Source: a virus. From it: a DNA stretch of 31,011 bases. The DNA is taken from positions 1-31,011 of IMG/VR virus record IMGVR_UViG_3300025645_000297. One strand, 5' to 3'. The position numbers and the translations under genes are program-made. A model generated the notes under the pieces. It saw only the letters and a list, made by a program, of their open reading frames with translations. It made no database searches and was not told the origin of the DNA. Below are positions 4,513-26,788 of this stretch, one piece after another; the first letter of the stretch is position 1, and the number at the start of each line of letters is the position of its first letter.

Positions 4513-4542
4513 CAAATATAACATAAAAATAATTAATACAAA
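4513..4542 (-). promoter_or_regulatory. Promoter of the minus-strand module
   Basis: On the minus strand TATATTTG (4513-4520) matches the Bacteroidetes -7 box, with TTTG (4539-4542) 18 nt upstream as a -33 element. The expected start site lies only about 10 nt before the HTH gene's ATG at 4497. Confidence 0.65.
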
Positions 4543-12347: not shown

Positions 12348-12626
12348 ATGGATAAAAGAAAGAATAACGGAAACAAAGGACATAGCACAAAAGCAAAAGG
12401 TATAGATAAGCGTAAAAACGAATACAAATCTGTACTAGAAAACGCTTTAACACATGAGGACTTACAGAAAGTGGTTAAAATGTTATACGGTAAAGCTATA
12501 AATGATTTTGACGTACCTGCATCTAAGATATTACTTGAATACTATTTAGGTAAACCAAAAGAAACAATAGAAACAACGCACAACATTAACGACTTCAATA
12601 TTAAAGATATTGTTAACTTTAAATAA
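12348..12626 (+). CDS. Putative terminase small subunit
   Basis: The 92-residue protein directly precedes and overlaps the large terminase gene. A very basic N-terminus (MDKRKNNGNKGHSTKAKGID) is followed by helices (YKSVLENALTHEDLQKVVKM, then FDVPASKILLEYYLGKPKET). Position, size and the closing EYYLGKP motif fit the short small-terminase-like proteins of Bacteroidota phages, which recognise the packaging site and stimulate TerL. It is shorter than classical TerS proteins, so the call is moderate. Confidence 0.6.
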   Translation: MDKRKNNGNKGHSTKAKGIDKRKNEYKSVLENALTHEDLQKVVKMLYGKAINDFDVPASKILLEYYLGKPKETIETTHNINDFNIKDIVNFK

Positions 12627-13815
12627 GAAATATGAGCAACTATTTAAAAGTGATAGTCGATACTATGTTGTAAGTGGTGGACGTGGTTCTGGTAAATCAT
12701 ATTCGGTTAACAGTTTCTTATTGCTACTAACTTATGAAGTAGGTCATGTTATACTATTCACACGTTACACATTAACTTCTGCACATATTTCTATTATACC
12801 AGAGTTTATAGATAAGATTGAAACAGCCGATTTAAAGCATGACTTTCATATTACTAAAGATGAAATAATAAATTTAACTACTGGTTCTAAAATACTTTTT
12901 AAAGGTATTAAAACATCTAGCGGAACGCAAACAGCAAACTTAAAGTCATTAGCTGGTGTTACTACATGGGTACTAGATGAAGCCGAAGAGTTAGTCGATG
13001 AAACTATATTCGATAAAATAGACTTTTCAATACGAGCAAAGAACTTACAAAATAGAGTGGTATTAATTCTTAACCCAGCAACAAAAGAGCATTTTATTTA
13101 CAAAAGATTCTTTGAGGGAAAAGGAATAGAAGCAGGTAGCAATTTAGTCAAAGAAGATACAACTTACATTCATACAAGTTACTTAGACAATTACGAAAAC
13201 TTATCAGAAAGCTACATTAATCAAATAGAATTGATGAAGCGCAACAACGCTAACAAATACAACCACGTTATAATGGGTGGTTGGTTAGATAAAGCAGAAG
13301 GTGTTGTGTTTAATAATTGGTCTTTTGGTGCGTTTAATCCGAATGGTTTACAAACATCTTGTGGAATGGATTTTGGTTTTAGTGTTGACCCAGACACTTT
13401 AACCGAAGTGGCCATTGACAAATCTAAGATGAAGATTTACGTAAAAGAACACATCTACAACAAAGGTATGAAGTCGCACGAACTTGCTAAGATAATATTA
13501 TCAAAAGTAGATAAGAAGTTAATCATAGCAGATAGTGCTGAACCACGTTTAATTGAAGATTTACGTTACTTAGGTGTAAACGTACAGGCAGTTAAAAAGG
13601 GTACAATAGAAAGTGGCATAACACGTATGCAAGACTATGAATTAATAGTTGACCCAAACAGTAGTAACATAGCTAAAGAATTAAACAATTATATTTACTT
13701 AGACAAAGGTAGTAAATTGTATATTGACGATTACAACCATGCCGTTGATGGGATTAGATATAATGTTATTTATCATTTAGACAACCCAAATAAAGGTAAT
13801 TATCATATTTATTAG
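12610..13815 (+). CDS. terL: Terminase large subunit
   Basis: The 401-residue protein shows Walker A GGRGSGKS (23-30), Walker B TTWVLDEAEE with D123/E124, coupling motif VLILNPAT (151-158), and a nuclease domain with D254 (CGMDFGFSVD), D308 (LIIADSA) and D380 (YNHAVDG). It is the packaging motor and DNA-cutting enzyme. No ATG fits near the N-terminus; a TTG at 12610, 17 bp inside the small-subunit gene, gives MLTLNKKYEQLFKSD, the right distance before Walker A. A -7 box follows its stop directly, and a terminator lies at 13869. Confidence 0.93.
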   Translation: MLTLNKKYEQLFKSDSRYYVVSGGRGSGKSYSVNSFLLLLTYEVGHVILFTRYTLTSAHISIIPEFIDKIETADLKHDFHITKDEIINLTTGSKILFKGIKTSSGTQTANLKSLAGVTTWVLDEAEELVDETIFDKIDFSIRAKNLQNRVVLILNPATKEHFIYKRFFEGKGIEAGSNLVKEDTTYIHTSYLDNYENLSESYINQIELMKRNNANKYNHVIMGGWLDKAEGVVFNNWSFGAFNPNGLQTSCGMDFGFSVDPDTLTEVAIDKSKMKIYVKEHIYNKGMKSHELAKIILSKVDKKLIIADSAEPRLIEDLRYLGVNVQAVKKGTIESGITRMQDYELIVDPNSSNIAKELNNYIYLDKGSKLYIDDYNHAVDGIRYNVIYHLDNPNKGNYHIY

Positions 13816-13823
13816 TATATTTG
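13816..13823 (+). promoter_or_regulatory. -7 box abutting the terL stop codon
   Basis: TATATTTG begins on the base after the TAG stop and is followed by C as at the other two plus-strand boxes. Only about 45 bp without any ORF separate it from the terminator at 13869, so it may make a short RNA of about 70 nt. No -33 TTG is seen. Confidence 0.4.
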
Positions 13824-13868
13824 CAATGACATAATTTTTCTGTTTTAGTTTTAAAGTTGATTATTTTG

Positions 13869-13898
13869 ACCCATCTATTAATTTAGGTGGGTTTTTTT
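13869..13898 (+). terminator. Intrinsic terminator after terL
   Basis: ACCCATCTA (13869-13877) pairs with TAGGTGGGT (13884-13892), a 9-bp stem with one G-U pair and a 6-nt loop, followed by seven T (13892-13898). It separates packaging from tail genes. The 119 bp from 13816 to 13934 otherwise hold only the -7 box and the late-type motif. Confidence 0.85.
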
Positions 13899-13905
13899 GT
13901 TTGTT

Positions 13906-13930
13906 ACAAAAATCTGTTTTTTTGTATTAT
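13906..13930 (+). promoter_or_regulatory. Late-promoter candidate A (ACAAAAA-N10-TGTATTAT)
   Basis: ACAAAAA (13906-13912), 10 nt, then TGTATTAT (13923-13930), 4 bp before the tail chaperone ATG. It has the same layout as 21622, 22399 and 24612. The wider upstream TTGTTACAAAAA nearly repeats at 21617 (TTGTAACAAAAA). Confidence 0.55.
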
Positions 13931-13934
13931 TAGT

Positions 13935-14588
13935 ATGAAGTTAATTATACCAACAGATTTAAGCGAAATAAAACTTTACCAATACCAGAAGTTTATCGCA
14001 ATAGATGAGCCACAAAACGAAGATGTTTTAAAGTGCTTCTTAGATTTAGATGCTGAAACTATCAATTTAATGAAAGTGTCAGATGTTGAAGATATCGCTG
14101 CAACTATACTAGCAACGTTTAAAAAGAACGATAACAAGTTCACACCTACATTTAAATTAAACAACGATTACTTCGGTTTTATTCCAAACCTGGACGAGAT
14201 TACCTACGGTGAGAATAAAGACATTACAACGTACTTAAATGATTGGAAGAATATGCATAGAGCGATGGCCGTTATGTACAGACCAATCACACACAAACGA
14301 GGTACAAAGTATGTTGTAGAAGATTATAAGGGTACACACGTTTACAGCGATATAATGAAGGACACGCCTTTAAACGTTGTGTTTGGTTCTATGGTTTTTT
14401 TTTGGAATTTAACAAACGAATTGTTACAAACTATCCCGAACTTTTTAGCCAAACAAACGAAGAAGGAACAGATAGCAGGTCGCATTTCGGTAAAAAATGG
14501 GGAAGCTATTCAGAAATCATTACACTTGCTCAAGGCGACGTTAGACGACTTAATGAAATTTCAGCATTACCCTTACACCAGTGCTTAA
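13935..14588 (+). CDS. Tail assembly chaperone, unshifted form (gpG-like)
   Basis: From ATG 13935 the protein has 217 residues (MKLIIPTDLSEIKLYQYQKF, middle TYGENKDITTYLNDWKNMHR, then MYRPITHKRGTKYVVEDYKG). Its place before the tail genes and the second frame that overlaps its last 187 bp mark it as the G part of a G/G-T tail chaperone pair that keeps the tape-measure protein in an assembly-ready state. Two canonical -1 slippery heptamers occur in its frame: T_TTT_TTT at 14396-14402 within a run of nine T, and A_AAA_AAT at 14492-14498. The longer frame back to 13887 overlaps the terminator and is rejected. Confidence 0.75.
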   Translation: MKLIIPTDLSEIKLYQYQKFIAIDEPQNEDVLKCFLDLDAETINLMKVSDVEDIAATILATFKKNDNKFTPTFKLNNDYFGFIPNLDEITYGENKDITTYLNDWKNMHRAMAVMYRPITHKRGTKYVVEDYKGTHVYSDIMKDTPLNVVFGSMVFFWNLTNELLQTIPNFLAKQTKKEQIAGRISVKNGEAIQKSLHLLKATLDDLMKFQHYPYTSA

Positions 14589-14659
14589 TGTTTTTAGCCT
14601 ACGAAAAAGAAAAGGCAGAATTAGAACAAAAATTAATGAAGCAAAGTTTTAAAAGATGA
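14402..14659 (+). CDS. Tail assembly chaperone, -1 frameshift extension (gpT-like)
   Basis: This frame has no own ATG; it opens at TTG 14402, exactly where a -1 slip at the nine-T run would enter it. Its C-terminal part, FGKKWGSYSEIITLAQGDVR followed by PLHQCLMFLAYEKEKAELEQ, matches gpT-like domains of Bacteroidota siphophages. A slip at T_TTT_TTT would give a fusion of about 241 residues, with 61 codons read in two frames. A slip at A_AAA_AAT would enter at KKWGSY instead. The conserved-looking FG before KKW favours the first site, but this is from memory. The stop overlaps the next start (ATGA). Confidence 0.7.
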   Translation: MEFNKRIVTNYPELFSQTNEEGTDSRSHFGKKWGSYSEIITLAQGDVRRLNEISALPLHQCLMFLAYEKEKAELEQKLMKQSFKR

Positions 14660-15111
14660 TAGGATTTTATAAAGTATTAGACGTATTAAGAAAAGAATTG
14701 CAAGATATACCTTTTGTAAACACAGTTACTTATGGCGATATATCGGACGTAGATTTAAGTAAGAAAACAATATTTCCGTTAAGTCATTTTATAGTCAATA
14801 ACTTTAGTTATCAAGGTAATGTTGTTAATTTAAGTCTAAGCCTATTATGTATGGATATAGTGGACGAAAGTAAAGCAGATACAATAGATAAATTCAAAGG
14901 TAATAACAACGAGCAGGACGTATTTAATACGCAAATGAATGTGATACTTAGGGTACTAGATAGGTTAAAACGTGGACAGTTGTTTGACGATAAATATCAG
15001 TTAGATGGTGAGCCGAATGTTGAAGCATTTGTTGACCGTTTTGATAATAAGTTGGCAGGTTGGACTTGTAGTTTTAATGTTATTATTCCAAGTGATATGA
15101 CTATTTGCTAG
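14656..15111 (+). CDS. Neck/head-tail connector-type protein (151 aa)
   Basis: The 151-residue protein (MIGFYKVLDVLRKELQDIPF, TVTYGDISDVDLSKKTIFPL, C-terminus GWTCSFNVIIPSDMTIC) resembles a conserved neck protein found beside gp10-like genes in flavobacterial phages. Its alpha-then-beta layout fits tail-completion or stopper proteins. The role is inferred from position: it overlaps the chaperone extension by 4 bp, and its stop directly abuts the next start. Confidence 0.6.
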   Translation: MIGFYKVLDVLRKELQDIPFVNTVTYGDISDVDLSKKTIFPLSHFIVNNFSYQGNVVNLSLSLLCMDIVDESKADTIDKFKGNNNEQDVFNTQMNVILRVLDRLKRGQLFDDKYQLDGEPNVEAFVDRFDNKLAGWTCSFNVIIPSDMTIC

Positions 15112-15663
15112 ATGAGTGATTTAAAGAACACACAAGAAGCGTTAAACAAGTTTGCTAAGTATGTAATAAAACAAAGCAGAAGCAACTTAACACGTCAAGG
15201 TAAGAATACAACTAGCAGTCTTTATAACAGTTTAGATACTGATGTTAAAGTAAGTCCGAATAGTTTTAGCTTAGCGTTTATGATGGACAAATACGGTGTG
15301 TTTCAAGACAAAGGTGTTAATCCAATAGGTAAAAAGGTACATAATACAGAATTTCAGTTTAAACATTTTCCATCGTTAAACGGTAAGTTTGCACAAAGCA
15401 TGGCAAAATGGGCAAAGGCTAAAAACATAAGATTAAGGGACGAAAAAGGTAGGTTTAAAAAAGGTAATTATAAAACAATAGGTTACATATTAGCTAGAAG
15501 CGTAGCAACAGGAACAAATAAAAATCAAGGTATAAAGCCTAGTTTGTTTTTTACCAAACCATTTAATAAAGCCTTTGAAAATTTACCAGACGATTTAGTA
15601 AAAGCATTTGCGTTAGATGTAGATAACTTACTAGATTTTACAACAAAAAACATATTAAAATAA
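15112..15663 (+). CDS. HK97 gp10-like neck/tail-completion protein
   Basis: The basic 183-residue protein has KYGVFQDKGV and GTNKNQGIKPSLFFTKPFNK near the end, matching the gp10-like pattern in which a conserved Y-x-x-x-x-x-x-G loop and a late KP-x-x-FF segment occur. Such proteins complete the tail end before joining to the head. The stop shares one base with the next start (TAATG). Neighbour order (chaperone, connector, gp10-like, baseplate) supports the role. Confidence 0.68.
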   Translation: MSDLKNTQEALNKFAKYVIKQSRSNLTRQGKNTTSSLYNSLDTDVKVSPNSFSLAFMMDKYGVFQDKGVNPIGKKVHNTEFQFKHFPSLNGKFAQSMAKWAKAKNIRLRDEKGRFKKGNYKTIGYILARSVATGTNKNQGIKPSLFFTKPFNKAFENLPDDLVKAFALDVDNLLDFTTKNILK

Positions 15664-17138
15664 TGGCAGAATTTAGCAGAGTAAAAATTAAATTTTTAAT
15701 AGATTTTGAAATAGGTTACAAAGCAAAATTGTCAACCACTTTAAATGATGTATTTACACCACAGACATGGGAATGGGTTAACACAAGGTCAGCAGGTTTT
15801 GAAGTAACAACAGGGACACCAACAGCAACAGCAGGAGAACGTACTGCGATTAACTTTGCAGCTGCATTTAACTTAGACAATCCAGACGACTACATTGTAA
15901 ACGTAGATATTAATGAAGTAGAGATAATTTCAGAAACCGAAGGCTTAGACTTTGTAGGATTTAAAGTTGATGACGAATTAGGCAGACCAGTATTAGCAGG
16001 TAGTGGTTATATTGTAGTATTTGAAAACTACGTTGCACCAATTGATTTAACTACTATTGATTTTGCATTAGTTAAATCGCCACACTATATTAATATACCT
16101 TTCTTATTTGATACGACTATTTCTGCTAGTGTCGATGTTTTTGTATGGTATGGTGATGTTGTAGATGTTCCAGCGTTACCAACTTACAGCCTTACTATAC
16201 CAAGACCTACAATAGATTTTGCAGAATTCAATATTGATATATCTGATTTAGTTCAAGAGCAATTAGAAGCTAAACCAACGATACAAACATCTGGTGCAAC
16301 TGCAAGAATAGATAGTACTTCTGAATCGGTTAAATGGATGAAGTATGTGGCATCTTACACCGATGCAGAAGAAAGTATTGCAGATATAAATGGTTTACTT
16401 ATTGCTACTGATGGATATGGGTATTATAACGAGGGTGCTAATCCTACTAAACCAAATGACAACATATTAACCAATACAAGAAATAGACAAGTAGCACGTA
16501 ACGGTGTGGCTTTAATGCCATACGTTAACAATACAGAAGTAACAAGAATAGATATAAAAAGTTTCCCAAGTGGTGATTTGAATGGGTTTTTTATTATGGT
16601 TCCGTTAAGTTTAACTGAACAATTTATACAATACATTCAAGTTAATCTTAACCTATCAAGTACACAAGATACAAGTTTTGAGATAAGACTATCGCCAAGT
16701 GATGAAGTCATTAATTACAACATCATAGACGAATGTAAATATACACCTATACAAGTTGTGTTTAAAAATAAGTACGGTGTGTTTGATAGCTTAAACTTAT
16801 TTAAAAAGCAAAGCCATTCGACAACTACTAAGCACGACACATTTGTAAACAACTACATAACGGCTGGTAATTATGATACAACAAGACATCAATACCAAAA
16901 GTTAAATGTAACTGCAAAAGATAAAATTAAAACCAATAGCGGTTATATTTTAGAAGCTGAAAACGAAATTTACAAAGAGTTACTGCAATCTGAAACGGTT
17001 TATTTTTATGAAGATGCTAAGTTAATACCAGTTAATTTAACTAATTCATCTTTAGATTTTAAAACACAATTAGACGATAAGCTGTTTAATTATTCTTTAG
17101 ATTTTGAATATGCTTACAATGTAATACAAAACGTATAG
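15663..17138 (+). CDS. Tail tip/baseplate structural protein (491 aa)
   Basis: This 491-residue, beta-rich protein (FSRVKIKFLIDFEIGYKAKL at the start, QTSGATARIDSTSESVKWMK in the middle, DDKLFNYSLDFEYAYNVIQN at the end) has few charged helices and no enzyme motif. It resembles large tail proteins lying before the hub-like gene in Bacteroidota siphophages. Its location between neck and tape-measure genes supports a tail-tip role, but the exact part is not resolvable from sequence. Confidence 0.6.
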   Translation: MAEFSRVKIKFLIDFEIGYKAKLSTTLNDVFTPQTWEWVNTRSAGFEVTTGTPTATAGERTAINFAAAFNLDNPDDYIVNVDINEVEIISETEGLDFVGFKVDDELGRPVLAGSGYIVVFENYVAPIDLTTIDFALVKSPHYINIPFLFDTTISASVDVFVWYGDVVDVPALPTYSLTIPRPTIDFAEFNIDISDLVQEQLEAKPTIQTSGATARIDSTSESVKWMKYVASYTDAEESIADINGLLIATDGYGYYNEGANPTKPNDNILTNTRNRQVARNGVALMPYVNNTEVTRIDIKSFPSGDLNGFFIMVPLSLTEQFIQYIQVNLNLSSTQDTSFEIRLSPSDEVINYNIIDECKYTPIQVVFKNKYGVFDSLNLFKKQSHSTTTKHDTFVNNYITAGNYDTTRHQYQKLNVTAKDKIKTNSGYILEAENEIYKELLQSETVYFYEDAKLIPVNLTNSSLDFKTQLDDKLFNYSLDFEYAYNVIQNV

Positions 17139-17139
17139 A

Positions 17140-19461
17140 ATGACAGTAGAAGTATTTATAGAGGGCAAGAAATTAGATTTATTTGACGACGAAAATATAA
17201 GCGTTACTCAAGGTGTTCAAGATGTTAAAGATATTAGTAAATTGTTTGCGGATTTTTCGCAGTCATTTAACGTACCTGCATCTAATCGCAACAATGCTAT
17301 ATTTCGAAACTATTACAACCAAGATATTGACAACGGTTTTGATGCTAGAACACGTAAAGATGGTTATTTAACCGTTAACACTTTGCCTTTTAAAACTGGT
17401 AAGATTAGGCTTGATGGTGTTAAGTTAAAAGATAATCACCCATCTAGTTATAAGATTACATTTTTTGGTGATATTATAAAGATTAAAGATAGGATAGGCG
17501 ACGATAAATTAAATACATTGGATTGGTTGGCTAATTTTAACCATGCCTATTCAGATACAATCGTAGAAACAGGCTTAACTGGTGGCTTAGATTTTACGGT
17601 TGATAGTGTTAGTTATCCTAGAGCAGTTGTATATCCTTTAATTGCTTATAAAAGGCAGTTTCTTTACGATTCTAGTAGTGGTAATCATACAGATACAGAT
17701 ACTTTAGTTAATATACATTATCATAATCAAGGTGCAGGTCATTCAAAACATGGTGTAGATTTTAAAAACTTAAAACCAGCCATTAAATTAAGGCTAATAA
17801 TTGAAGCAATAGCGCAAAAATATGACTTAACTTTTGTAGGTGGTTTTTTTGAAAGTCAAAACTTTAAAGACATTTACGTTAATCTAAATAAAAGTACAGA
17901 AAGCCTAGCAAATGGAAATTTATTAGTTGAAGATGAAATAACACCAACCACACCAGAATCTGGTGCTTCAAATGATTTTATAAGGTATTACTATACAATT
18001 ACACCAGGTGCAGCATTTCAGAATGTTGGCTATAAAGTTAGAATTACTTACAATGGTACTGTAACAGTAGAATATCCAAATTTTGTTTATGGTACTGAAT
18101 CAAATCAAATGACCATACAAAGTCCAAGCGAAGAAGCGGACATACAATTAGAAATTTTAACAATAGAAAATTTTGAATTTTCAGTAACGACAGATTTAAA
18201 GCAAAAACTTTGTTCGTTATGCCCTTTAATTACTATCGGTAATTATCCAAATACTTACAATAATCAAGTTATAGATTTAAATACTAATATACTTAACGAG
18301 ATTAAAGATATTAAAACCTATGATTTTTTAATGGGTGTTTTTAAGACGTTTAATTTAGTAGCAACATCTAGCAACGGTAATATATTGGTTGAAGATTTAC
18401 CTACATGGTATGCACAAGGTCGCATAGTTGACATTACAAAGCACGTTGACACCGAAAAAAGAAGCGTAGATAAAGGACGTATTTTTAACGAAATGTTTTT
18501 TAATTTCAAAGAAAGTGAGCAGGTAATTGCAGACGAATTTAATCAAACTAATAGCAGGTTTTATGGTAATGAAGATTTAACACTTTACACCGATGAAACG
18601 GAAGAAGTTAAATTAGATGGTGAGAAATTAGAAGTAAAATCTATATTTGAAAACCCAATATTTGACAGGTTAACAGACCAAGATACAAACGAGCAAACCA
18701 CAATCTTATATTGTCCGTACTTCAATAGAGAAATTAAATCAATTAGTGGCAACCCTTTTATGTTTTACGCATTAGACCAAGATGTAAGTAATAATACTAT
18801 TGGTTTTGTTGGTAGTGGTACAACCTACAACGAGTTAAACGATACCGTTATAATGCCAAGCCATAGTCGAGTTATTGATGCACCTAGTTTTAACCTAAAC
18901 TTTGCGAGTGAGTTCAACGAGTACACAGGTCAAGAATTTACTAACACTATTTATGACCAATATTATAGAGATTATATAGAAGATATATTTAGCGTTAAAC
19001 GTAGAAATTTTAAGTTTACTGCTATACTACCTAATAGCATTTTAAACAACCTTAAATTAAACGATAGGCTAGTAATTAAAAATACAAGGTATATTATTAA
19101 TAAGATAACATCTAATCTAACCAATAGAAAAGATGAGTTAGAGTTAATTAATGATATCTATGATGCACCATTAGCAACTGATGTATTACGTTCTTCTTTA
19201 TTTGAGCCACAAGAAGCTAATTATCCATCACAAGAATTTACAGATACTATACAATACTTCGGTGTTGGTGGTAATGTTAATGTAGTAGATTTAGGCTTCG
19301 GTACTACATGGGTTAATGTAGATAATGTATCGGTAAATAACAACATAGCATCGATAACATTTAGCATTTCAAAAAATGGAAGTACTGATTTTAGATACGC
19401 AGGAATACAAGTAAATGACAAACAAAAAGAACCAATTTTTTACATAGGACAAGAGGAATGA
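17140..19461 (+). CDS. Large tail/baseplate hub-type protein (773 aa)
   Basis: The N-terminus MTVEVFIEGKKLDLFDDENI, then DVKDISKLFADFSQSFNVPA and FRNYYNQDIDNGFDARTRKD, are features I recognise from large structural proteins of Bacteroidota phages annotated as phage tail proteins. The 773 residues are mainly beta, with a C-terminal domain (about 700-773, EFTDTIQYFGVGGNVNVVD) that may be an appended binding module. No lysin or peptidase motif is visible. It starts one base after the previous stop and shares ATGA with the small ORF behind it. Confidence 0.65.
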   Translation: MTVEVFIEGKKLDLFDDENISVTQGVQDVKDISKLFADFSQSFNVPASNRNNAIFRNYYNQDIDNGFDARTRKDGYLTVNTLPFKTGKIRLDGVKLKDNHPSSYKITFFGDIIKIKDRIGDDKLNTLDWLANFNHAYSDTIVETGLTGGLDFTVDSVSYPRAVVYPLIAYKRQFLYDSSSGNHTDTDTLVNIHYHNQGAGHSKHGVDFKNLKPAIKLRLIIEAIAQKYDLTFVGGFFESQNFKDIYVNLNKSTESLANGNLLVEDEITPTTPESGASNDFIRYYYTITPGAAFQNVGYKVRITYNGTVTVEYPNFVYGTESNQMTIQSPSEEADIQLEILTIENFEFSVTTDLKQKLCSLCPLITIGNYPNTYNNQVIDLNTNILNEIKDIKTYDFLMGVFKTFNLVATSSNGNILVEDLPTWYAQGRIVDITKHVDTEKRSVDKGRIFNEMFFNFKESEQVIADEFNQTNSRFYGNEDLTLYTDETEEVKLDGEKLEVKSIFENPIFDRLTDQDTNEQTTILYCPYFNREIKSISGNPFMFYALDQDVSNNTIGFVGSGTTYNELNDTVIMPSHSRVIDAPSFNLNFASEFNEYTGQEFTNTIYDQYYRDYIEDIFSVKRRNFKFTAILPNSILNNLKLNDRLVIKNTRYIINKITSNLTNRKDELELINDIYDAPLATDVLRSSLFEPQEANYPSQEFTDTIQYFGVGGNVNVVDLGFGTTWVNVDNVSVNNNIASITFSISKNGSTDFRYAGIQVNDKQKEPIFYIGQEE

Positions 19462-19604
19462 TATTAGAACTATTAAGATTAGACGATTGGCACAATGTTA
19501 GCGAAAACGTCGAGATAGCAAAGGGTAAAAATGAATTGCCATTAACATTAAAAAAAGGGTTTAAACAATTTAAAAGAGATTTAAAATGGCAGAAGAAAAG
19601 GTAA
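19458..19604 (+). CDS. Small basic protein between baseplate and tape measure (48 aa)
   Basis: An ATGA overlap with the 773-aa gene and a 19-bp overlap with the tape-measure gene frame a 48-residue ORF (MILELLRLDDWHNVSENVEI, then a Lys-rich end KRDLKWQKKR). It fits the tight packing of the tail operon. Function unknown; a small tail chaperone or linker is possible. Confidence 0.5.
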   Translation: MILELLRLDDWHNVSENVEIAKGKNELPLTLKKGFKQFKRDLKWQKKR

Positions 19605-21496
19605 TTAACATTAAAGTTAACACTTCAAGTGCAAAAAAAGGTGTTAATGATTTAAATAAAAGCGTTGACAATCTAAACAAAGAAGTAAAAGAAACAAGTA
19701 AATCCAGTCAACAAATGGGTGGTACTTTAGACAAAGTATCTGGTGGTGCTGTTTCTAAATTTACAGCATTTAAAGGTGCTGTTTCAAATGTTGCAACAGG
19801 CTTTAAATCTTTAAGAGTTGCGATTATAGCTTCTGGTATTGGTGCATTGGCTATTGGAATACTTGCAATAGTACAAGCGTTTAAAAGAAGTGAAGAAGGG
19901 CAAAACAAATTTGCTAAATTAATGGGTGTTATAGGTGCTGTAACAGGTCAGTTTTTAGACCTTATTGCAGATTTAGGCGAAAACATTATATCTGCATTTG
20001 AAAACCCTAAAAAAGCTATAAAGGATTTTGTTAATTTAATTAAAGATAACATAATAACAAGATTTGAGGGGTTACTAGAATTATTACCTAAATTAGGCAA
20101 AGCAATAACCTTATTATTTAGTGGTGAATTTTCAGAAGCTGGTAAGGTTGCAGCTGATGCAGTTGGAAAAGTTGCGTTAGGTGTGGATAGTATTACAAAT
20201 TCATTTAATGAAGCAACAGAAGCGGTTAAAAACTTTGCAAAAGAAACATTAAAAGAAGCAAATATCGCTGCAAATATTGCGGATAAAAGGGCAAAAGCAG
20301 ACAAATCAGAACGTGCTTTAATTGTGGCTAGAGCGAAAGCAAACAGAGATATAGCAGAATTAAGAGAAAGTGCAGCCGATAAAGAAAATGTATTAGTAGA
20401 GGACAGAATTAAGGCATTAGAAAAGGCTGCACAAATAGAAGAAGAAATAACTAAAAGAGAAATACAAGCAGCAAATTTAAGATTAAGCGCAAAAGTAGCA
20501 GAGAATGCATTAGGTAAAAGTACTAAAGCAGACTTAGACGAAGAAGCTAATTTAAGAGCAAGAGTAATTAATTTAGAAACTGCAAGATTAAGAAAGCAAA
20601 AGGCATTAACAGCCGAAGTAACTACTGCAAGGAGAGAAGCTAATTCAGAATTAGAAGCCGAAAGAAAAGCGATACAAGATAAATTAGATGCAGAAAATAA
20701 AACAGCTACTGAAAATGAAGCAAAAAGATTACAAGCTATTAAAGCTATTCAAGATAAATTTAAGGCTAAAGAAGAAGAAGATGCTGCACAAACACAATTA
20801 CAAAAATTAGAATTAGAACAATCAAGAGCGTTAGCTGAATTAGATTTTTTAAATGCAACAGAAGAACAAAAATACCAAGTAAAAAAATATTGGGAAAATA
20901 TAATAGCAGAAGAAAAAATATTAACCGACACAAAAACAGCCGAAGAAGAAAAAAGAATAGCAGAAGAATTAGCTAAAGCAAAAGAAACGGAATACAGAAA
21001 TAATTACGATGCTTTGCAAAATATATTATCTAGTGGTGGTAAGAAAATGCAAAAAATATCCAAAGCGTTAGCAATAGCAGATGTGGCAAGAACAGCATTT
21101 CAATCTGTAAGCCAAACAGTATCTGGAATAGGTGCAGCAAATGCTAAAGCAATAGCAGCTTCACCATTAACAGGTGGTATGCCATTTGTAGCAGTAAACA
21201 CAGTAAAAGGTGCTTTATCTATTGCATCTACTTTGGCAAGTTCAGCTAAAAGCATACAAGCAATTAATTCAGAATCTAAAAATCCATCTGGTGCAGGAGG
21301 TGGATTATCTGGTGGAGGTGGTGGAGGTGCAGCTGCACCATCGTTTAACATAGTAGGACAAACAGGCACAAATCAATTAGCGCAAAGTTTAGGACAAAAC
21401 GAACAACAACCAGTCCAAGCATTTGTTGTGGCCAGTCAAGTAACTACACAGCAAGGCTTTGATAACAACATAGTTGAAACAGCAACTTTAGGGTAA
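19586..21496 (+). CDS. Tape measure protein
   Basis: The 636-residue protein has the usual layout: a charged helical N-terminus (NTSSAKKGVNDLNKSVDNLN), one hydrophobic membrane-like segment (about 77-98, IIASGIGALAIGILAIVQAF), long Ala/Glu/Lys coiled coils in the middle, and a Gly/Ala-rich C-terminus (GAGGGLSGGGGGGAAAPS). It sets tail length; using about 0.15 nm per residue as a rule of thumb, a tail of very roughly 95 nm would follow. A terminator lies just after its stop. Confidence 0.9.
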   Translation: MAEEKVINIKVNTSSAKKGVNDLNKSVDNLNKEVKETSKSSQQMGGTLDKVSGGAVSKFTAFKGAVSNVATGFKSLRVAIIASGIGALAIGILAIVQAFKRSEEGQNKFAKLMGVIGAVTGQFLDLIADLGENIISAFENPKKAIKDFVNLIKDNIITRFEGLLELLPKLGKAITLLFSGEFSEAGKVAADAVGKVALGVDSITNSFNEATEAVKNFAKETLKEANIAANIADKRAKADKSERALIVARAKANRDIAELRESAADKENVLVEDRIKALEKAAQIEEEITKREIQAANLRLSAKVAENALGKSTKADLDEEANLRARVINLETARLRKQKALTAEVTTARREANSELEAERKAIQDKLDAENKTATENEAKRLQAIKAIQDKFKAKEEEDAAQTQLQKLELEQSRALAELDFLNATEEQKYQVKKYWENIIAEEKILTDTKTAEEEKRIAEELAKAKETEYRNNYDALQNILSSGGKKMQKISKALAIADVARTAFQSVSQTVSGIGAANAKAIAASPLTGGMPFVAVNTVKGALSIASTLASSAKSIQAINSESKNPSGAGGGLSGGGGGGAAAPSFNIVGQTGTNQLAQSLGQNEQQPVQAFVVASQVTTQQGFDNNIVETATLG

Positions 21497-21501
21497 TAAA
21501 A

Positions 21502-21529
21502 AAAGAGCTACTGAAAACAGCAACTCTTT
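21502..21529 (+). terminator. Terminator after the tape measure gene
   Basis: AAAGAG (21502-21507) pairs with CTCTTT (21524-21529), with an inner CTG-AAAA-CAG stem, followed by AATATTTT. It closes the tail operon ahead of late-promoter candidate B. Confidence 0.6.
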
Positions 21530-21621
21530 AATATTTTAAAATAGACTTTTTTAACTACCAGGTTTTGAAGTCTTAAATGTTTAACAAAGATAAAAAATAA
21601 ATTTAGATATACAAATTTGTA

Positions 21622-21646
21622 ACAAAAAATAAAATAAATGTAATAT
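21622..21646 (+). promoter_or_regulatory. Late-promoter candidate B (ACAAAAA-N10-TGTAATAT)
   Basis: ACAAAAA, 10 nt, then TGTAATAT (21639-21646), 4 bp before the prohead protease ATG. TGTAATATTAGTATG differs by one base from 13923-13937. A 12-bp palindrome, TACAAATTTGTA, lies at 21610-21621. The rest of the 154-bp gap (21497-21650) holds the terminator and A/T-rich DNA. Confidence 0.55.
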
Positions 21647-21650
21647 TAGT

Positions 21651-22283
21651 ATGGAGGACTTACAGACAATAGAGTTATACATAGACGAGAGCAAAGTAGA
21701 AGATGGCATTGATGCTATTTCATTTGTTAAGCAACCAGCAATAGAGGAAAACTTTGTTGCACTATCTAAGCACAAAGTAGAGTTCAAATCTATTGACGAC
21801 GAAAAGCGTGTTATAGTTGGATTGGCATTAGTGCCAGATAAAAAGATTTACCGTAAAGCAGGCGACAAAGAATTTAATATAGTCTTTTCTAAAGACACAG
21901 TTAGACAAGCATCACATTTATATCTTAAAAAACTAAAGGTTAATAATACAACTTTAGAACACGAATCAAACACAGAGGGTGTTAGCGTAGTTGAAAGTTG
22001 GATAGTTGAAGATGCTAAAAATGACAAGTCAAATTTATATGGCTTAAATGCAGTCGAGGGTGCGTGGGTAGTTGTTATGAAAGTAGATAATGACGATGTA
22101 TGGCAAGATGTTAAGAAAGGCACTTATTTAGGGTTAAGTATTGAGGGTATATTTTCAGACAAAAAAGAAGATTTAAGCGCATTAGATGAAGTCATTGATT
22201 TATGTGATAAAGATGTTGCAGATATGACAGACGATGAAGCTATGGGTTTACTAACCATAATTAAAAAGTTATGCGATGAGTAG
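21651..22283 (+). CDS. Prohead protease (XkdF-like)
   Basis: The 210-residue protein has ISFVKQPAIEENFVALS near the start, GLALVPDKKIYRK (about 57-69), then LEHES with H104 and VVESWIVED with S116, the expected catalytic His and Ser of the HK97/XkdF-type assemblin proteases, and YLGLSIEGIF later on. It trims the scaffold and capsid proteins in the immature head. The C-terminal acidic helix could contact the scaffold. It starts a unit headed by late-promoter candidate B and overlaps the next tiny ORF by 8 bp. Confidence 0.82.
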   Translation: MEDLQTIELYIDESKVEDGIDAISFVKQPAIEENFVALSKHKVEFKSIDDEKRVIVGLALVPDKKIYRKAGDKEFNIVFSKDTVRQASHLYLKKLKVNNTTLEHESNTEGVSVVESWIVEDAKNDKSNLYGLNAVEGAWVVVMKVDNDDVWQDVKKGTYLGLSIEGIFSDKKEDLSALDEVIDLCDKDVADMTDDEAMGLLTIIKKLCDE

Positions 22284-22410
22284 AGCCGTTTATTGCTATT
22301 GTAAAAACACGTATTGCATTGATTGTTGTAAAGACTGCGATGCACCAGAATATTGGAAACAAGGCATAGGACAGACAACAGGACAGGGCAAAAATGAAAC
22401 AGAAGATTAA
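22276..22410 (+). CDS. Tiny cysteine-rich protein (44 aa)
   Basis: Overlaps the protease gene by 8 bp. MSRAVYCYCKNTYCIDCCKD followed by CDAPEYW gives Cys at 7, 9, 14, 17, 18 and 21 (C-x-C-x4-C-x2-CC-x2-C), a likely metal site, and a polar tail (GQTTGQGKNETED). Located between protease and scaffold genes, it may be a minor head or regulatory protein; unknown family. Late-promoter candidate C lies over its end. Confidence 0.55.
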   Translation: MSRAVYCYCKNTYCIDCCKDCDAPEYWKQGIGQTTGQGKNETED

Positions 22411-22423
22411 ATAAATGTATAAT
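22399..22423 (+). promoter_or_regulatory. Late-promoter candidate C (ACAGAAG-N10-TGTATAAT)
   Basis: ACAGAAG, 10 nt, then TGTATAAT (22416-22423), 16 bp before the scaffold start. Same spacing as copies A, B and D, but two substitutions in the upstream half; it partly overlaps coding sequence. Confidence 0.45.
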
Positions 22424-22439
22424 TAATAAATAGAAGTAA

Positions 22440-22994
22440 ATGAATCCAAAAGAAACATTAAACAAAGTTAAAACTTTGCTTGGTTTAGAGGTTAAGCTAG
22501 AGCAAATGAAACTAGAAAATGGAACTATAATCGAAGCAGAAAGCTTTGAACCACAAAACGATGTGTTTATAGTTACAGAAGAGGAAAGAATACCTATGCC
22601 AGTCGGTGAGTATGAACTTGAAGATGGTAGAATGGTAGTAATTTCAGAAGAGGGTGTAATTGCAGAGGTTAAAGCAAAAGAAGAAGAAGTTGCTGAACCA
22701 GTTGAAGAAGTTGCAGAACCAGAAATGGCAGCAGAGCCAACAGCTAAGAAAGTAGTTGAAAGCATTAGCAAAGAAATGTTTTTTAGTGAAATCGAAAAAC
22801 TAAGAAATGAAATTGCTGAACTTAAAGCACCAAAACAAGAGTTGGCTAAAGTAGAGGTTGAACTTTCAGAAGAAGTTAAACCAATAGTTCACAACCCAGA
22901 AACAAAAAGCGAAAAGAATTTAAATCTTTACGCACAAAAAAGAACACAAACAACACAAGATAGAGTATTTAACAAATTATTTAATAAAAATTAA
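22440..22994 (+). CDS. Capsid scaffold protein
   Basis: The 184-residue protein lies between protease and capsid genes. After a helical start (MNPKETLNKVKTLLGLEVKL) it has a small beta domain (TIIEAESFEPQNDVFIVTEE, PMPVGEYELEDGRMVVISEE), an acidic low-complexity stretch (about 78-105, Glu/Ala/Val/Pro) and a coiled coil (MFFSEIEKLRNEIAELK), then a basic tail. This is the layout of scaffold proteins of Bacteroidota siphophages, which guide capsid assembly and are then cut by the protease. Confidence 0.72.
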   Translation: MNPKETLNKVKTLLGLEVKLEQMKLENGTIIEAESFEPQNDVFIVTEEERIPMPVGEYELEDGRMVVISEEGVIAEVKAKEEEVAEPVEEVAEPEMAAEPTAKKVVESISKEMFFSEIEKLRNEIAELKAPKQELAKVEVELSEEVKPIVHNPETKSEKNLNLYAQKRTQTTQDRVFNKLFNKN

Positions 22995-22996
22995 AC

Positions 22997-23947
22997 ATGG
23001 CAACAACAACAAGTATAACGACAACTTATGCAGGTGAATTTGCAGGACAATATACGTCCGTAGCATTACTATCTTCTTCTACTATTGATAATGGTGGTTT
23101 AGAAGTTAAACCTAACATTAAATTCAAAGAGGTAATTAAGAAATTATCTACTGATGACATCTTAAAAGATGCAACATGTGATTTTGATGCAACTTCAACT
23201 ATTACATCTGTAGAAAAAATTCTTGAGGTAAAAGAATTACAAGTAAACCTACAACTTTGTAAAAAAGATTTTAGAAACGATTGGGAAGCAATATCAATGG
23301 GCTTTAGTGCTTTTGATAACTTACCACCAACTTTTCAAGATTATTTACTAGGACACGTAGTTTCTAAAGTAGCTGAAAAGAATGAGAAAAACATTTGGCA
23401 AGGTGATTCTGCAAATACAGGTGAGTATGATGGTTTTATTGCTTTATTAGAAGTAGATGCCGCTTTACCAGCTGCACAAGAAATTGCAGGTGCAACAGTA
23501 ACAGCTGCAAATGTAATTGATGAATTAGGTAAGATTGTAGATGCTATTCCAGACGCTTTATACGGAAAAGAAGATTTATATATCTACGTTTCGCAAAACA
23601 TTTATCGTGCTTATGTAAGAGCGTTAGGTGGATTTGCTGCTGCAGGATTAGGTGCTAATGGTGTTAACGCACAAGGTACTAACCAAGTATTAGGCGATTT
23701 AGTATTTGATGGTGTTAAAATCTTCGTAGCTAACGGATTACCAAGTAACACAGCAGTTTGTGCTGAAAAGTCTAACTTATTCTTTGGTGCATCACTTATG
23801 AGCGATATGCAAGAGGTTAAAGTAATTGACATGGCAGATATCGATGGTTCACAAAACGTAAGAGTAGTGATGAGATTAGCAGCAGGTGTTCAATACGCAG
23901 TTGTTGAAGATATTGTAACGTACGGTATCACAAACGCAGCTAACTAG
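22997..23947 (+). CDS. Major capsid protein (HK97-fold type)
   Basis: The 316-residue protein follows protease and scaffold, has a Thr-rich start (MATTTSITTTYAGEFAGQYT), a helix-rich middle (PTFQDYLLGHVVSKVAEKNE, KNIWQGDSANTGEYDGFIAL) and a C-terminal part (GVKIFVANGLPSNTAVCAEK, DIDGSQNVRVVMRLAAGVQY) typical of HK97-fold capsids with an A-domain near the end. Ordinary size for the family. A strong terminator follows, as expected for the most abundant late product. Confidence 0.88.
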   Translation: MATTTSITTTYAGEFAGQYTSVALLSSSTIDNGGLEVKPNIKFKEVIKKLSTDDILKDATCDFDATSTITSVEKILEVKELQVNLQLCKKDFRNDWEAISMGFSAFDNLPPTFQDYLLGHVVSKVAEKNEKNIWQGDSANTGEYDGFIALLEVDAALPAAQEIAGATVTAANVIDELGKIVDAIPDALYGKEDLYIYVSQNIYRAYVRALGGFAAAGLGANGVNAQGTNQVLGDLVFDGVKIFVANGLPSNTAVCAEKSNLFFGASLMSDMQEVKVIDMADIDGSQNVRVVMRLAAGVQYAVVEDIVTYGITNAAN

Positions 23948-23966
23948 TAAATTAATTAATAACATT

Positions 23967-24004
23967 AAAAAAGGTGGTACGTTTCTAACTGCCACCTTTT
24001 TTTT
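23967..24004 (+). terminator. Strong intrinsic terminator after the major capsid gene
   Basis: AAAAAAGGTGG (23967-23977) pairs with the CCACC run that leads into at least eight T (23992-24004). A perfect G/C core and long T-tract make this a confident terminator. The tail-tube gene starts about 20 bp later without the late-type motif. Confidence 0.88.
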
Positions 24005-24022
24005 ATAAAAAAATATAACAAT

Positions 24023-24556
24023 ATGGCTTGTGATATAAGTTTAGGGCGTTTAGAGCCTTGTAAAGATAGTATAGGTGGATTAAGAAACATCTACTTTATG
24101 AATTTCGGCAACGATTTTTATGATGATAAAATTTTAAGTACAGATGAATTAATTACATCAGTTACTTTAGCAGATAAGAATGCTTACAAATACGAGTTAA
24201 GAGGTGCTAACAATTTCGATGAAGCTAATGAGGTTTCAAAAGATAACGGTACTTCATTTTGGACTGGTACAGGTACAATCGTATTAAAAAAGCAAGATGC
24301 TGCGACACGTAAAGAGTTAAAGTTAATGAGTTACGGTAGACCAATCGTAATTACAGAAGATTATAACGGTGCGTTTAAAGTTTACGGTGCACAAAATGGT
24401 TGTGATGTATCAGTAGGTACTGCAAGTGGTACAGCAATGGGTGATTTAAATGGCTATAACTTAACCGTTACAGCGATGGAAAGAGAGCCTGGATTCTTTA
24501 TTGATTTTGATGCAATAGTAACAGCAGCAGAAATAGTAGTAGTAGAAGGAGCATAA
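24023..24556 (+). CDS. Major tail (tail tube-like) protein
   Basis: The 177-residue protein starts MACDISLGRLEPCKDSIGGL and has KYELRGANNFDEANEVSKDN then GTIVLKKQDAATRKELKLMS and TAMGDLNGYNLTVTAMEREP. Beta-rich with the order seen in tail-tube proteins of flavobacterial phages. A position right after the capsid and a strong terminator on each side fit a highly expressed single gene. Confidence 0.75.
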   Translation: MACDISLGRLEPCKDSIGGLRNIYFMNFGNDFYDDKILSTDELITSVTLADKNAYKYELRGANNFDEANEVSKDNGTSFWTGTGTIVLKKQDAATRKELKLMSYGRPIVITEDYNGAFKVYGAQNGCDVSVGTASGTAMGDLNGYNLTVTAMEREPGFFIDFDAIVTAAEIVVVEGA

Positions 24557-24575
24557 TTTGATTTTGATTTGGTTT

Positions 24576-24608
24576 TAAAAGGGGTTGACTACGGTTAACC
24601 CTTTTTTT
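24576..24608 (+). terminator. Intrinsic terminator after the tail tube gene
   Basis: AAAAGGGGTT (24576-24585) pairs with AACCC plus the following T-run (24596-24608), with one bulged G. A GGTTAACC palindrome lies within the loop side. Eight T follow. Confidence 0.85.
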
Positions 24609-24611
24609 TAT

Positions 24612-24636
24612 AACAAAAAACTATTTTATTGTATTA
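24612..24636 (+). promoter_or_regulatory. Late-promoter candidate D (ACAAAAA-N10-TGTATTAT)
   Basis: ACAAAAA (24612-24618), 10 nt, then TGTATTAT (24629-24636), 15 bp before the ATG at 24652. The two boxes match candidate A exactly; only the spacer differs. It begins just 4 bp after the terminator's T-run. Confidence 0.55.
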
Positions 24637-24651
24637 TAATAAAGGCATAAC

Positions 24652-24996
24652 ATGACAATAGTTAATCCAGATATTGAAGCGATAACAATAAACTATTTTA
24701 ATAGGTACGAATCATCACCGCATACCGTTGAGTTTTACAATGAAAGTACAAGACTTACAGAAGTTATAAATATTGAAAGCAAAGATATTATTAGTTATTA
24801 TAGCATTATAGGATTTAGTAATTTAGATTACTTTAAAGAAGGTAATAGTTATGTAATGAGCGTAAAAGATATTAATGCAAATGTACTTTTTTTAGACAAA
24901 GTTTACGCAACATCGCAGAACGTAGAAGATTACACGATTAACAAGGACGTTTACACAACCAATCCGACAAACACAGATTACATTATTTATGAATGA
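24652..24996 (+). CDS. Phage structural-type protein before the portal (114 aa)
   Basis: A 114-residue beta-rich protein (VEFYNESTRLTEVINIESKD, VLFLDKVYATSQNVEDYTIN, end NPTNTDYIIYE) of a kind I remember from Bacteroidota phages directly before the portal gene; function unknown. It shares 8 bp with the portal gene. No signal peptide or enzyme motif seen. It leads the unit headed by candidate promoter D. Confidence 0.6.
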   Translation: MTIVNPDIEAITINYFNRYESSPHTVEFYNESTRLTEVINIESKDIISYYSIIGFSNLDYFKEGNSYVMSVKDINANVLFLDKVYATSQNVEDYTINKDVYTTNPTNTDYIIYE

Positions 24997-26788
24997 TATA
25001 CACATTTTACAGTTAAGTAAATATACAAGTCCTGTAATTACTGAAAACAAAAACAAAGAATTTGTTGAGTATGGTTCGGACAATTTTTACTTCCAATACT
25101 TAATAGATAGGTACGTAGGTAGCACAACTAACAACGCTATTATTAAGGGTGTTGCTAATATGATATTCGGTAAAGGTTTAGATGCTTTAGATAGCAGAAG
25201 AAAGCCTAACCAATACGCACAAATGAAGTCTATTGTTAAAGACAGCGAGTTATCTAAAATAGTACTAGATAGAAAGTTGTTAGGTATGGCAGCGATGCAA
25301 GTTACTTATGATAAATCTAAAGTAAAAAGCATTACGCACTTCCCAATGGAAACGTTAAGAGCGTCTAAAATTAAAGATAGTGGACAAATTGAAAGCTGGT
25401 TTTACCACCCTAATTGGAAGGAATATAAAAAGTCAGATGTTTTAAAAGAAATACCAGCATTTGGTTACGGTAATAAAAAAGGAAACGAAATATTTGTCGT
25501 TAAGCCTTATGTAAGTGGTTTTTATTATTACACACCTTGTGATTATGTAGGTGCTTTACCTTATGCCTTATTAGAAAGTGAGATAGCAGACTATTTAATT
25601 AATGATACTATAAACGGTTTTAGTGGCACTAAGGTAATTAATTTTAACAACGGTGTACCAGACAAAGAAAAGCAGGAAGAGATTAAAAACAACGTGCTTC
25701 AAAAGTTAACAGGTGCAAGGGGTGAGAAAACTATTATAGCATTTAATAACAATCAAGAAAGCGCAACAACGGTTACAGATTTACCGTTAAATGATGCACC
25801 AGAACACTACCAATATTTAAGCGACGAATGTAGAAACAAGTTAATCGTAGGTCATAATATCACAAGTCCATTGCTAATTGGTGTTAGAGAAACAGGTGGT
25901 GGTTTAGGTAGTAATGCAGACGAGATTAAAAACAGCGCAGTTTTCTTTGATAACATAGTTATAAAGCCTTATCAAATGGAATTAACGCAGGTTTTAGAGC
26001 AGATACTAGCAGTTAATGATATTAGTCTTAATCTTTATTTTAAAACCATACAACCGTTAGAATTTACAGACGTTGAGGGTATGGATTCTGAAACTAAAGA
26101 AGAAGAAACAGGTGTTAAAATGGCTAAAGAAAACGCAGATTTTGACGATGAAACAATGTTGGATTCGTTAGATGGTGAAGTGGTTAATTTAGATGAGTGG
26201 GAACTTGTAGAAACTAGAGAATACGACGACGAAAACGAAGACGTGGAAACTTGGGCAAATAGATTGATAAAGCCTAAAAAAGATATGCTAACTAAATTAG
26301 CAGATTTTATCAAGTCTAAACCAAGTGCAAAAAGTTCTTTAGATAAGTCATTTTACAAAGTTAGATATACATATCAAGAAAAATACAGTAGTGGTAAAAG
26401 TCGTTTATTCTGTTCTAATATGATGAGCAGAACAGGTAAAGGTGTTGTGTACAGAAAAGAAGATATAGACCAAGCGAGTTTTAGTGGTGTAAATAAGTCA
26501 TTCGGGCATAAGGGGCAAAACTATTCTTTATTTAAATACAAAGGTGGTGTTAATTGTGGGCATTACTTTCAAGAAGAACTATACAGACTAAAGAAAAATA
26601 CCGATGGCACTTACAAAGAAGATAAGGCTTTAAGTTCTAGCGAAGAAGTAGATACTATACCGAATAGCTATAAGCCAAAAGGTGAAGAGTATAATAAGGC
26701 TAAGATAGCACCTAAAGATATGACTGGAAATAATAAGAACGGACACCATCCAGATTGGATAGCACAACACCCAAATTACAAAGGATAG
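24989..26788 (+). CDS. Portal protein with a C-terminal extension domain
   Basis: The 599-residue protein has a portal core over about the first 390 residues (NNAIIKGVANMIFGKGLDAL near the start, HPNWKEYKKSDVLKEIPAFG, then NDTINGFSGTKVINFNNGVP, and a crown helix region VFFDNIVIKPYQMELTQVLE). A strongly acidic linker (DDENEDVETWANRL and neighbours) leads to a separate domain at about 455-540 with RLFCSNMMSRTGKGVVYRKE and FKYKGGVNCGHYFQEELYRL. That domain resembles the conserved part of MuF/minor head proteins that is usually a separate protein. It forms the head vertex through which DNA passes. Confidence 0.78.
   Translation: MNDIHILQLSKYTSPVITENKNKEFVEYGSDNFYFQYLIDRYVGSTTNNAIIKGVANMIFGKGLDALDSRRKPNQYAQMKSIVKDSELSKIVLDRKLLGMAAMQVTYDKSKVKSITHFPMETLRASKIKDSGQIESWFYHPNWKEYKKSDVLKEIPAFGYGNKKGNEIFVVKPYVSGFYYYTPCDYVGALPYALLESEIADYLINDTINGFSGTKVINFNNGVPDKEKQEEIKNNVLQKLTGARGEKTIIAFNNNQESATTVTDLPLNDAPEHYQYLSDECRNKLIVGHNITSPLLIGVRETGGGLGSNADEIKNSAVFFDNIVIKPYQMELTQVLEQILAVNDISLNLYFKTIQPLEFTDVEGMDSETKEEETGVKMAKENADFDDETMLDSLDGEVVNLDEWELVETREYDDENEDVETWANRLIKPKKDMLTKLADFIKSKPSAKSSLDKSFYKVRYTYQEKYSSGKSRLFCSNMMSRTGKGVVYRKEDIDQASFSGVNKSFGHKGQNYSLFKYKGGVNCGHYFQEELYRLKKNTDGTYKEDKALSSSEEVDTIPNSYKPKGEEYNKAKIAPKDMTGNNKNGHHPDWIAQHPNYKG

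Follow-up and report, generated by a model that had tools for sequence, protein, structure and literature searches.

Phage-encoded sigma factors that serve late genes are already established, as in phages 7-11 and phiEco32. The sigma factors gp55 of T4 and gp28 and gp34 of SPO1 are not of the two-domain extracytoplasmic function (ECF) build and read other promoters. All three act on late or middle genes (PMC9429907). In the available text of PMC8948821, sigma factor gp47 of Salmonella phage 7-11 works with the host core enzyme on late genes through bipartite promoters (GTAAtg-16-aCTA), and gp36 of Escherichia coli phage phiEco32 works with the host core enzyme on middle and late genes through the promoter tAATGTAtA; promoter places are common to the two phages and the sequences differ. 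Here we analyse a 31,011-base stretch of phage DNA (positions 1 to 31,011 of IMG/VR record IMGVR_UViG_3300025645_000297; hereafter the window), in which four copies of a two-box motif stand ahead of structural genes and a sigma factor gene lies upstream of terL, the gene of the terminase large subunit. Very probably, in our view, the ECF-type sigma factor that the phage encodes reads these four sites as late promoters. This agrees with an earlier note on the window, which had proposed a late promoter class, perhaps read by the product of 11301-11828; the proposal is supported by the conserved places of the sites, by the concerted change of their -10 boxes and by the ECF-type gene near terL. 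The features concerned are:

11301..11828, + strand: ECF-type phage sigma factor of 175 amino acids, limited to regions 2 and 4 (profiles, structure model, 74 of 82 loci)
13906..13930, + strand: motif copy A (exact match), predicted late promoter A; upstream box TTGTTACAAAAA, -10 box TGTATTAT; lineage versions in relatives
21622..21646, + strand: motif copy B (exact match), predicted late promoter B, upstream of the protease gene (ATG at 21651)
22399..22423, + strand: motif copy C (exact match), predicted late promoter C, the weakest copy, upstream of the scaffold-like gene
24613..24637, + strand: motif copy D (exact match), predicted late promoter D, upstream of the gene that precedes the portal gene (ATG at 24652)

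Like phage 7-11, the window combines a phage sigma gene with bipartite sites before late genes and GTAA-like letters in the upstream box; unlike it, phage 7-11 has an enterobacterial host, belongs to another phage family and uses the -10 aCTA where the window has a GT-containing box. The 7-11 system has been shown by experiment, whereas that of the window is deduced from sequence, and leaderless mRNA does not appear in the available 7-11 text (PMC8948821). The phiEco32 promoter is a single element and its sigma factor has no region 4 homology, as far as the same text describes them, whereas the window has two boxes and a modelled sigma4 domain. Closer in build are E. coli sigma-E and Mycobacterium tuberculosis sigma-H, with two domains (sigma2-sigma4) and rigid promoter spacing; the sigma-H promoter has an AAC-containing -35 (GGAACA) and a GT-containing -10 (GTT), and in bacterial ECF sigma factors a flipped -10 base is read by a sigma2 loop (PMC6411747, available part). 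In contrast to these, the window sigma is a phage gene with a phage regulon. Among Bacteroidota, the promoter class SM6 of Flavobacterium psychrophilum has a CGT -10 and is attributed to an ECF sigma in the available text of PMC9723704; it belongs to host genes, and the likeness is one of the -10 box alone. Against this background the window system stands out by how widely it occurs, by its likely host phylum, by a -10 code that can be seen to drift and by the prediction of leaderless mRNAs. Among the open-licence papers listed in searches on phage sigma factors and late promoters, none treats, by title, late promoters of this phage group, which is weak evidence of absence.

The motif in the window and its lineage versions

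Scanning both strands of the window with ACARAAR-N10-TGTAWWAT returned exactly four matches, all on the + strand, bearing out the earlier claim of two boxes with exactly 10 nucleotides (nt) between them; three start positions were as given there, and the fourth is 24613 rather than 24612. Shuffling led us to expect 0.04 exact matches, and none of 100 shuffles gave four. Allowing up to two mismatches left no excess in the window (11 matches against 6.98 expected; 8 of 100 shuffles reached 11), and the signal is thus carried by close matches. Because the pattern had been derived from the sites themselves, we added held-out scoring, in which a two-block weight matrix built from three sites scored the fourth on both strands with the other known sites masked. 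Sites A, B and D each ranked first in the whole window, and C ranked second. All four do lie ahead of gene units, as had been noticed: the start codon follows the G of TGTA by 11 (A), 11 (B), 23 (C) and 21 nt (D), a placement whose loose version, applied post hoc, holds for 3.3% of + strand positions. The wider context said to be common to A and B is indeed nearly identical (TTGTWACAAAAA and TGTAWTATTAGT-ATG).

Relatives were sampled as 82 related loci (80 of 575 matching stretches were kept) and as a set of 31 contigs, several of them incomplete, comprising the window, 28 IMG/VR contigs and the Nonlabens phages P12024S and P12024L of the genus Inhavirus, for which Persicivirga sp. IMCC12024 is the recorded host. 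The window TerL is 63% identical to that of P12024S/L, and the nearest named relatives of the window phage infect marine flavobacteria. Gene families between 13935 and 19461 have relatives in 31 of the 31 contigs, and those from 22997 to 27298 in 25-27. Many of the 82 loci show the same architecture in the sequence that separates terL from its downstream neighbour, yet the exact pattern recurs only at site A of two loci, L007 and L008, in which terL is identical (100%) to that of the window. In diverged phages, lineage versions of the motif stand at the equivalent places, ahead of the chaperone-like, protease, scaffold and pre-portal genes. The literal pattern is confined to the window lineage, so that taking its absence from the same places in related phages as disproof, as the earlier note had proposed, would have been wrong.

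What is kept across lineages is an AACAAAA-like upstream box and a distance of 16-17 nt from AC to GT (in a scan that allowed 14-17, the window has 16 and most A sites have 17). The bases after GT differ between lineages and largely agree within one genome:

TGTAWWAT: window
CGTTTATA: eight contigs of lineage g6
TGTTTTTAAAT: most of thirteen contigs of lineage g7
AGTYAATTA: G002, G003 and G009 (lineage g2)
TAGTTWTAAT: G025
CGTTAnnATAG: P12024S/L
ACGTT-type: G026

An A-rich box with AC lies upstream of each of these -10 versions, less clearly so in P12024S/L. An ECF-like architecture (AC, 16-17 nt, GT) describes the sites better than a 7-mer-N10-8-mer does, and the sites show an AAC-like -35, a GT-containing -10 and near-constant spacing, all of them features of ECF-type promoters. 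Concerted, lineage-specific change at kept places is what a single factor acting in trans, and diverging along with its sites, should produce. Between lineages, the upstream box is better conserved than the -10 half, as it would be if a phage activator bound there and recruited host polymerase to poor -10 boxes. However, the -10 half changes by lineage in the copies together, which points to a subunit that reads the -10, and the 16-17 nt spacing suits one sigma factor spanning both boxes; we consider an activator of this kind very improbable.

The same comparison bears on whether the sites could be ordinary promoters of the host primary sigma factor that appear degenerate through AT-rich DNA. 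Host sigma-A promoters of Bacteroidota read TTTG/TAHHTTTG in the available text of PMC6847099. Sites A and B have a TTG in their surroundings, roughly where such a promoter would need it, the g6 -10 reads TACGTTTA in many copies, resembling TAnnTTTG, and TTG-N17/23-TAnnTTTG has 10 matches in the window, two of which, on the minus strand at 4541 and 1903, immediately precede early leftward genes. Yet no TTG is so placed at C or D, and the -7 box TAnnTTTG is in none of the four sites, a mismatch already pointed out in the earlier note. The boxes TGTTTTTAAAT of g7, AGTYAATTA of g2 and CGTTAnnATAG of P12024 do not fit TAnnTTTG, and those of g6 and G025 that can be read as TAnnTTTR have G at n, which is avoided in F. 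johnsoniae promoters (PMC6847099, available part). Concerted change by lineage would also be unexpected under one conserved host sigma, and we regard host primary promoters as very unlikely. A sigma-70 promoter scan of 13000-25500 found 52 sites against 53.5 in shuffles; scoring of the E. coli type is thus unhelpful here.

Held-out ranking in the relatives took in only sites located by the lineage pattern. All 23 ranked sites of the eight g6 contigs came first; among the thirteen g7 contigs, first rank went to A in 11 of 13, to B in 11 of 12 and to D in 8 of 9. The ranking of site C covered the window and g7, where equivalents occur in 12 of the 13 contigs and came first in three, second in seven, third in one and sixth in one. 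Matrix hits above 12.5 bits averaged 0.6 (g6) and 2.2 (g7) in resampled genomes, which were first-order resamples and not exact dinucleotide shuffles, and late sites score 14 to 29. Of 34 hits in the g6 contigs, 31 are late sites (8 at A, 8 before f38, 8 at B and 7 at D) and three lie elsewhere; the site before f38/tape measure is present in all eight, and none was seen at that place in the window. Other late-motif matches are few in the window and in g6, and g7 is noisier.

The lineage patterns were largely specific to their own contigs. Forward hits per own contig numbered 4.0 (window), 3.9 (g6), 3.8 (g7) and 4.0 (G025), as expected by construction, and reverse-strand hits 0.0 to 0.3. Applied to other lineages, these four patterns gave 0.0-0.1 forward hits, with one exception, the g6 pattern, which gave 0.5 on P12024. 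On g6, 0.4 reverse hits per contig came from the window pattern. Those of g2 and G026 are looser and match other lineages as well (four forward hits in the window for the G026 pattern), and the P12024 pattern gave 1.5 hits on its own contigs and 1.0 on G026. Contigs inside g6 and inside g7 are closely related, so the counts are not independent and represent about eight independent lineages.

The phage sigma factor

An iterated profile search detected the sigma gene ahead of terL in 74 of the 82 loci as well as in the window, and 30 of the 31 contigs have it; five of the eight loci that gave no match begin less than 860 bases before terL. With tblastn, the window sigma had no match among named phages at E 1, and P12024S/L hold a distant sigma, found by profile and annotated as Sigma-70 region 2. 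In Riemerella phage CRP6 (terL 45%), no sigma was found by profile in 41,139 of its 46,699 bases; this phage has another module order and is too distant to serve as a clean negative control.

Like ECF (group 4) sigma-70 factors, which are of about 20 kDa, the window protein is small (175 residues), is without regions 1 and 3, and contains a sigma region 2 domain and a region 4 helix-turn-helix. Pfam Sigma70_r2 (PF04542) was matched by 14 of 39 aligned sigma relatives at E 0.01, and no Pfam region 4 match was obtained for the window sigma. An AlphaFold2 model built from 39 sequences (mean per-residue confidence, pLDDT, 79.8; predicted template modelling score, pTM, 0.44) places sigma2 at about residues 1-80 and sigma4 at about 97-165, with a disordered loop at 77-84. 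It superposes on region 2 of sigma-E on -10 strand DNA (4lup) at 2.2 Å over 76 residues (Z 9.8) and on region 4 of sigma-E on -35 DNA (2h27) at 1.9 Å over 69 residues (Z 8.9). The first eleven Foldseek rows are ECF sigma factors (best E 1.5e-3); among viral models the first named match, which is not the top match, is labelled Sigma70-ECF. Invariant residues in the 39 sequences are Y35, N55, Y58 and I140. Profile alignment with Streptomyces sigma-R (1h3l, E 0.0073) pairs the invariant Y of NkaY with the Trp of LKAW. This Trp presumably corresponds to W81 of M. tuberculosis sigma-H, which stacks on the flipped -10 base (PMC6411747, available part).

Sigma divergence was compared over five lineages (the window, G003, G026, G015 and G006), with region limits that we set ourselves. 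Mean pairwise identity was 0.49 in the recognition helix of region 4, 0.27 in region 2.3-2.4 and 0.26 in the specificity loop, half of whose alignment cells are gaps. The seemingly faster divergence of the parts predicted to read the -10 parallels the variable -10 and the steadier -35, as a parallel that is not tree-corrected.

A host ECF sigma could in principle read the sites in place of the phage factor. F. psychrophilum has the ECF-type motif SM6, whose -10 box is CGT; its promoters were predicted there on the basis of mapped RNA starts (PMC9723704, available part), and the g6, G026 and P12024 sites contain CGT. Against this, the phages have an ECF-type sigma of their own beside terL in 74 of 82 loci, and the -10 boxes differ between phage lineages. 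We give a host ECF sigma very little probability.

Several findings weigh against the assignment of the sites to the phage sigma. The protein falls below the curated cut-offs of both family models: PF04542 gave E 9.2e-5 and 22.6 bits against a cut-off of 24, and NCBIfam TIGR02937 (sigma70-ECF) gave E 1.1e-10 and 41.4 bits against 42.9 over residues 9-159. The latter miss is marginal and concerns a database threshold, not a biological feature, so we call the protein ECF-type and not a filed member of the family. The superposition Z scores of 9-10 are modest for small helical domains and only single domains fit; among solved structures, every Foldseek match falls short of E 0.001, and superposing entire chains gives a poor fit (root-mean-square deviation about 16 Å). 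With all eight lineages, the contrast within the sigma shrinks to 0.31 (helix), 0.29 (2.3-2.4) and 0.25 (loop). Three loci, all short fragments, show no sigma in the 2.8 (L073), 1.4 (L079) and 1.2 kb (L081) before terL; the first two keep the late motif, and neither motif nor sigma was found in L081. Among the sites, C is the weakest copy in the window, and motif scans of the g6 contigs showed none before the scaffold gene. Further hits of the g7 matrix fall on an in-gene stretch of the TGATTTTAAAC type that recurs (up to 21.2 bits), on a minus-strand position within terL that recurs as well (14.2-17.6 bits) and on weaker places. P12024S/L have the motif at only two places, before gp01 and gp05, together with one in-gene match each; in these phages no gap separates terL from the following gene, and a single open reading frame (ORF) covers protease and scaffold. 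G025 likewise has one in-gene match.

Predicted late transcription and leaderless mRNAs

Under the preferred reading, in which the phage sigma serves the four sites, the factor would be made early or mid infection from an earlier transcript and would replace the host sigma on the host core RNA polymerase. Its region 4 would read the AACAAAA-like -35 box, and its region 2 a -10 box with GT that is otherwise lineage-specific (TGTAWWAT in the window). RNA synthesis could thereby begin anew, after a terminator or gene boundary, at each of the units for tail, head protease, scaffold and pre-portal/portal. Binding of the sigma to the four sites, the timing, the RNA start (+1) and autoregulation in some relatives are what we infer.

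In the sigma-H complex the -10 GTT has its T at -9 (PMC6411747, available part). By analogy the G would lie at -11 and +1 would fall 11 nt after it. At A and B the ATG stands at 11 nt, so leaderless mRNAs are predicted there, and the mRNAs from both sites are probably leaderless; for promoter A, the predicted RNA start is at or next to the ATG at 13935. Among 69 matched A-site loci (76 examined; the loci are redundant and some matches spurious), 42 have exactly 11 nt from G to ATG. Leaderless transcripts make up 5.5% in F. psychrophilum, according to the available text of PMC9723704. A motif that reaches the ATG at A and B, with the 11-nt distance fixed at many such sites, might also be a translation-start or RNA signal. 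Many other copies, however, lie 12-24 nt from the start codon while the box-to-box spacing stays constant, and A and D are placed after terminators; such a signal is extremely unlikely.

In the window, TTTGTATATTTATCG stands before the sigma gene; it is similar to the host box without being an exact TAnnTTTG. In G002/G003 the gene is preceded by AAAC-N16-AGTTATATAAGT-ATG, close to the late motif of their own lineage, and in six g7 contigs (G006, G007, G008, G012, G014 and G027) by a weaker late-type motif (14.0 bits); five of these six have an exact inverted repeat, TGTTACA/TGTAACA, upstream of the gene. In these contigs, late-type motifs before the sigma gene make positive feedback possible.

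A late sigma/promoter system looks widespread in this phage group. For the fuller picture, of a phage group, probably of Bacteroidota, with a fast-diverging ECF-type sigma, a -10 code drifting with the promoters, a steady -35, leaderless mRNAs and self-feedback in some lineages, we see the chances as evenly balanced. If true, it would explain the timing of structural genes in a large, mostly uncultured group of phages and supply a rule for finding their late promoters (a per-lineage -10 with AC, 16-17 nt and GT). It would also offer a natural panel of sigma/promoter pairs with repeated -10 changes, bearing on the evolution of ECF promoter codes, and orthogonal pairs of use for genetics in Bacteroidota. 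Leaderless late mRNAs would bear on how late genes are started by Bacteroidota ribosomes, whose mRNAs are without Shine-Dalgarno sequences.

Neighbouring genes, terminators and further observations

The genes and terminators around the four sites are:

12610..13815, + strand: terminase large subunit, terL
13868..13893, + strand: intrinsic terminator upstream of promoter A (-14.3 kcal/mol, z -5.0; flagged by pattern scan)
13935..14588, + strand: first gene after promoter A (phrog_32199, unknown function; relatives in 31 of 31 contigs)
21651..22283, + strand: prohead protease-like, Peptidase_S78_2 (PF14550)
22440..22994, + strand: scaffold-like protein (matches the C-terminal part of phrog_24921)
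24577..24609, + strand: intrinsic terminator upstream of promoter D (-16.8 kcal/mol, z -5.8, then a U run; not flagged by pattern scan)
24652..24996, + strand: small gene directly upstream of the portal gene (no family; relatives in 25 of 31 contigs)
24989..26788, + strand: portal protein (family model)

Intrinsic terminators had been described ahead of A, B and D. Those before A and D hold up, and B is preceded by a weak hairpin (-6.6 kcal/mol, z -2.3) that has no U run on the + strand; none was found upstream of C. A terminator pattern scan of 13000-25500 gave four hits against 4.4 in shuffles and, among A, B and D, flagged only A (+ strand). A strong terminator-like hairpin at 23965-24010 (-16.5 kcal/mol, z -5.3) lies before the gene at 24023, with no late motif after it.

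As for the gene names used earlier, the protease is confirmed by PF14550 and the scaffold is likely from phrog_24921, the N-terminal part of which is a protease and the C-terminal part the window scaffold-like protein; 'tail chaperone' and 'pre-portal' matched no supporting family and were given by position. Minus-strand gene calls at 21581-22765 were spurious and were replaced by the profile-based positions of protease and scaffold. The upstream half of site C overlaps the end of a 44-residue, Cys-rich ORF (22276-22410) between these two genes.

In locus L079 an unrelated ORF was seen by eye directly behind promoter A, before the chaperone-like gene, and is possibly a mobile endonuclease that captured the late promoter. 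Downstream of terL, L081 has another gene order and a host-type TACATTTG box in place of the late motif. The ORF just upstream of the window sigma gene (10716-11270) resembles DnaA in its C-terminal, DNA-binding part (TIGR00362, E 4.3e-7, model positions 365-435) and is without the ATPase part; it is perhaps an origin- or DnaA-box-binding phage protein.

Elsewhere in the window, 2642-4030 (minus strand) matches beta-glucosyl-HMC-alpha-glucosyltransferase (phrog_842, E 8e-49), and P12024L has a gene annotated with the same name plus a 2OGFeDO-type oxygenase gene; base modification is possible. A homing endonuclease of the group I intron/GIY-YIG type, with matches that are weak or below curated cut-offs, lies at 6745-7347 beside the SSB gene.

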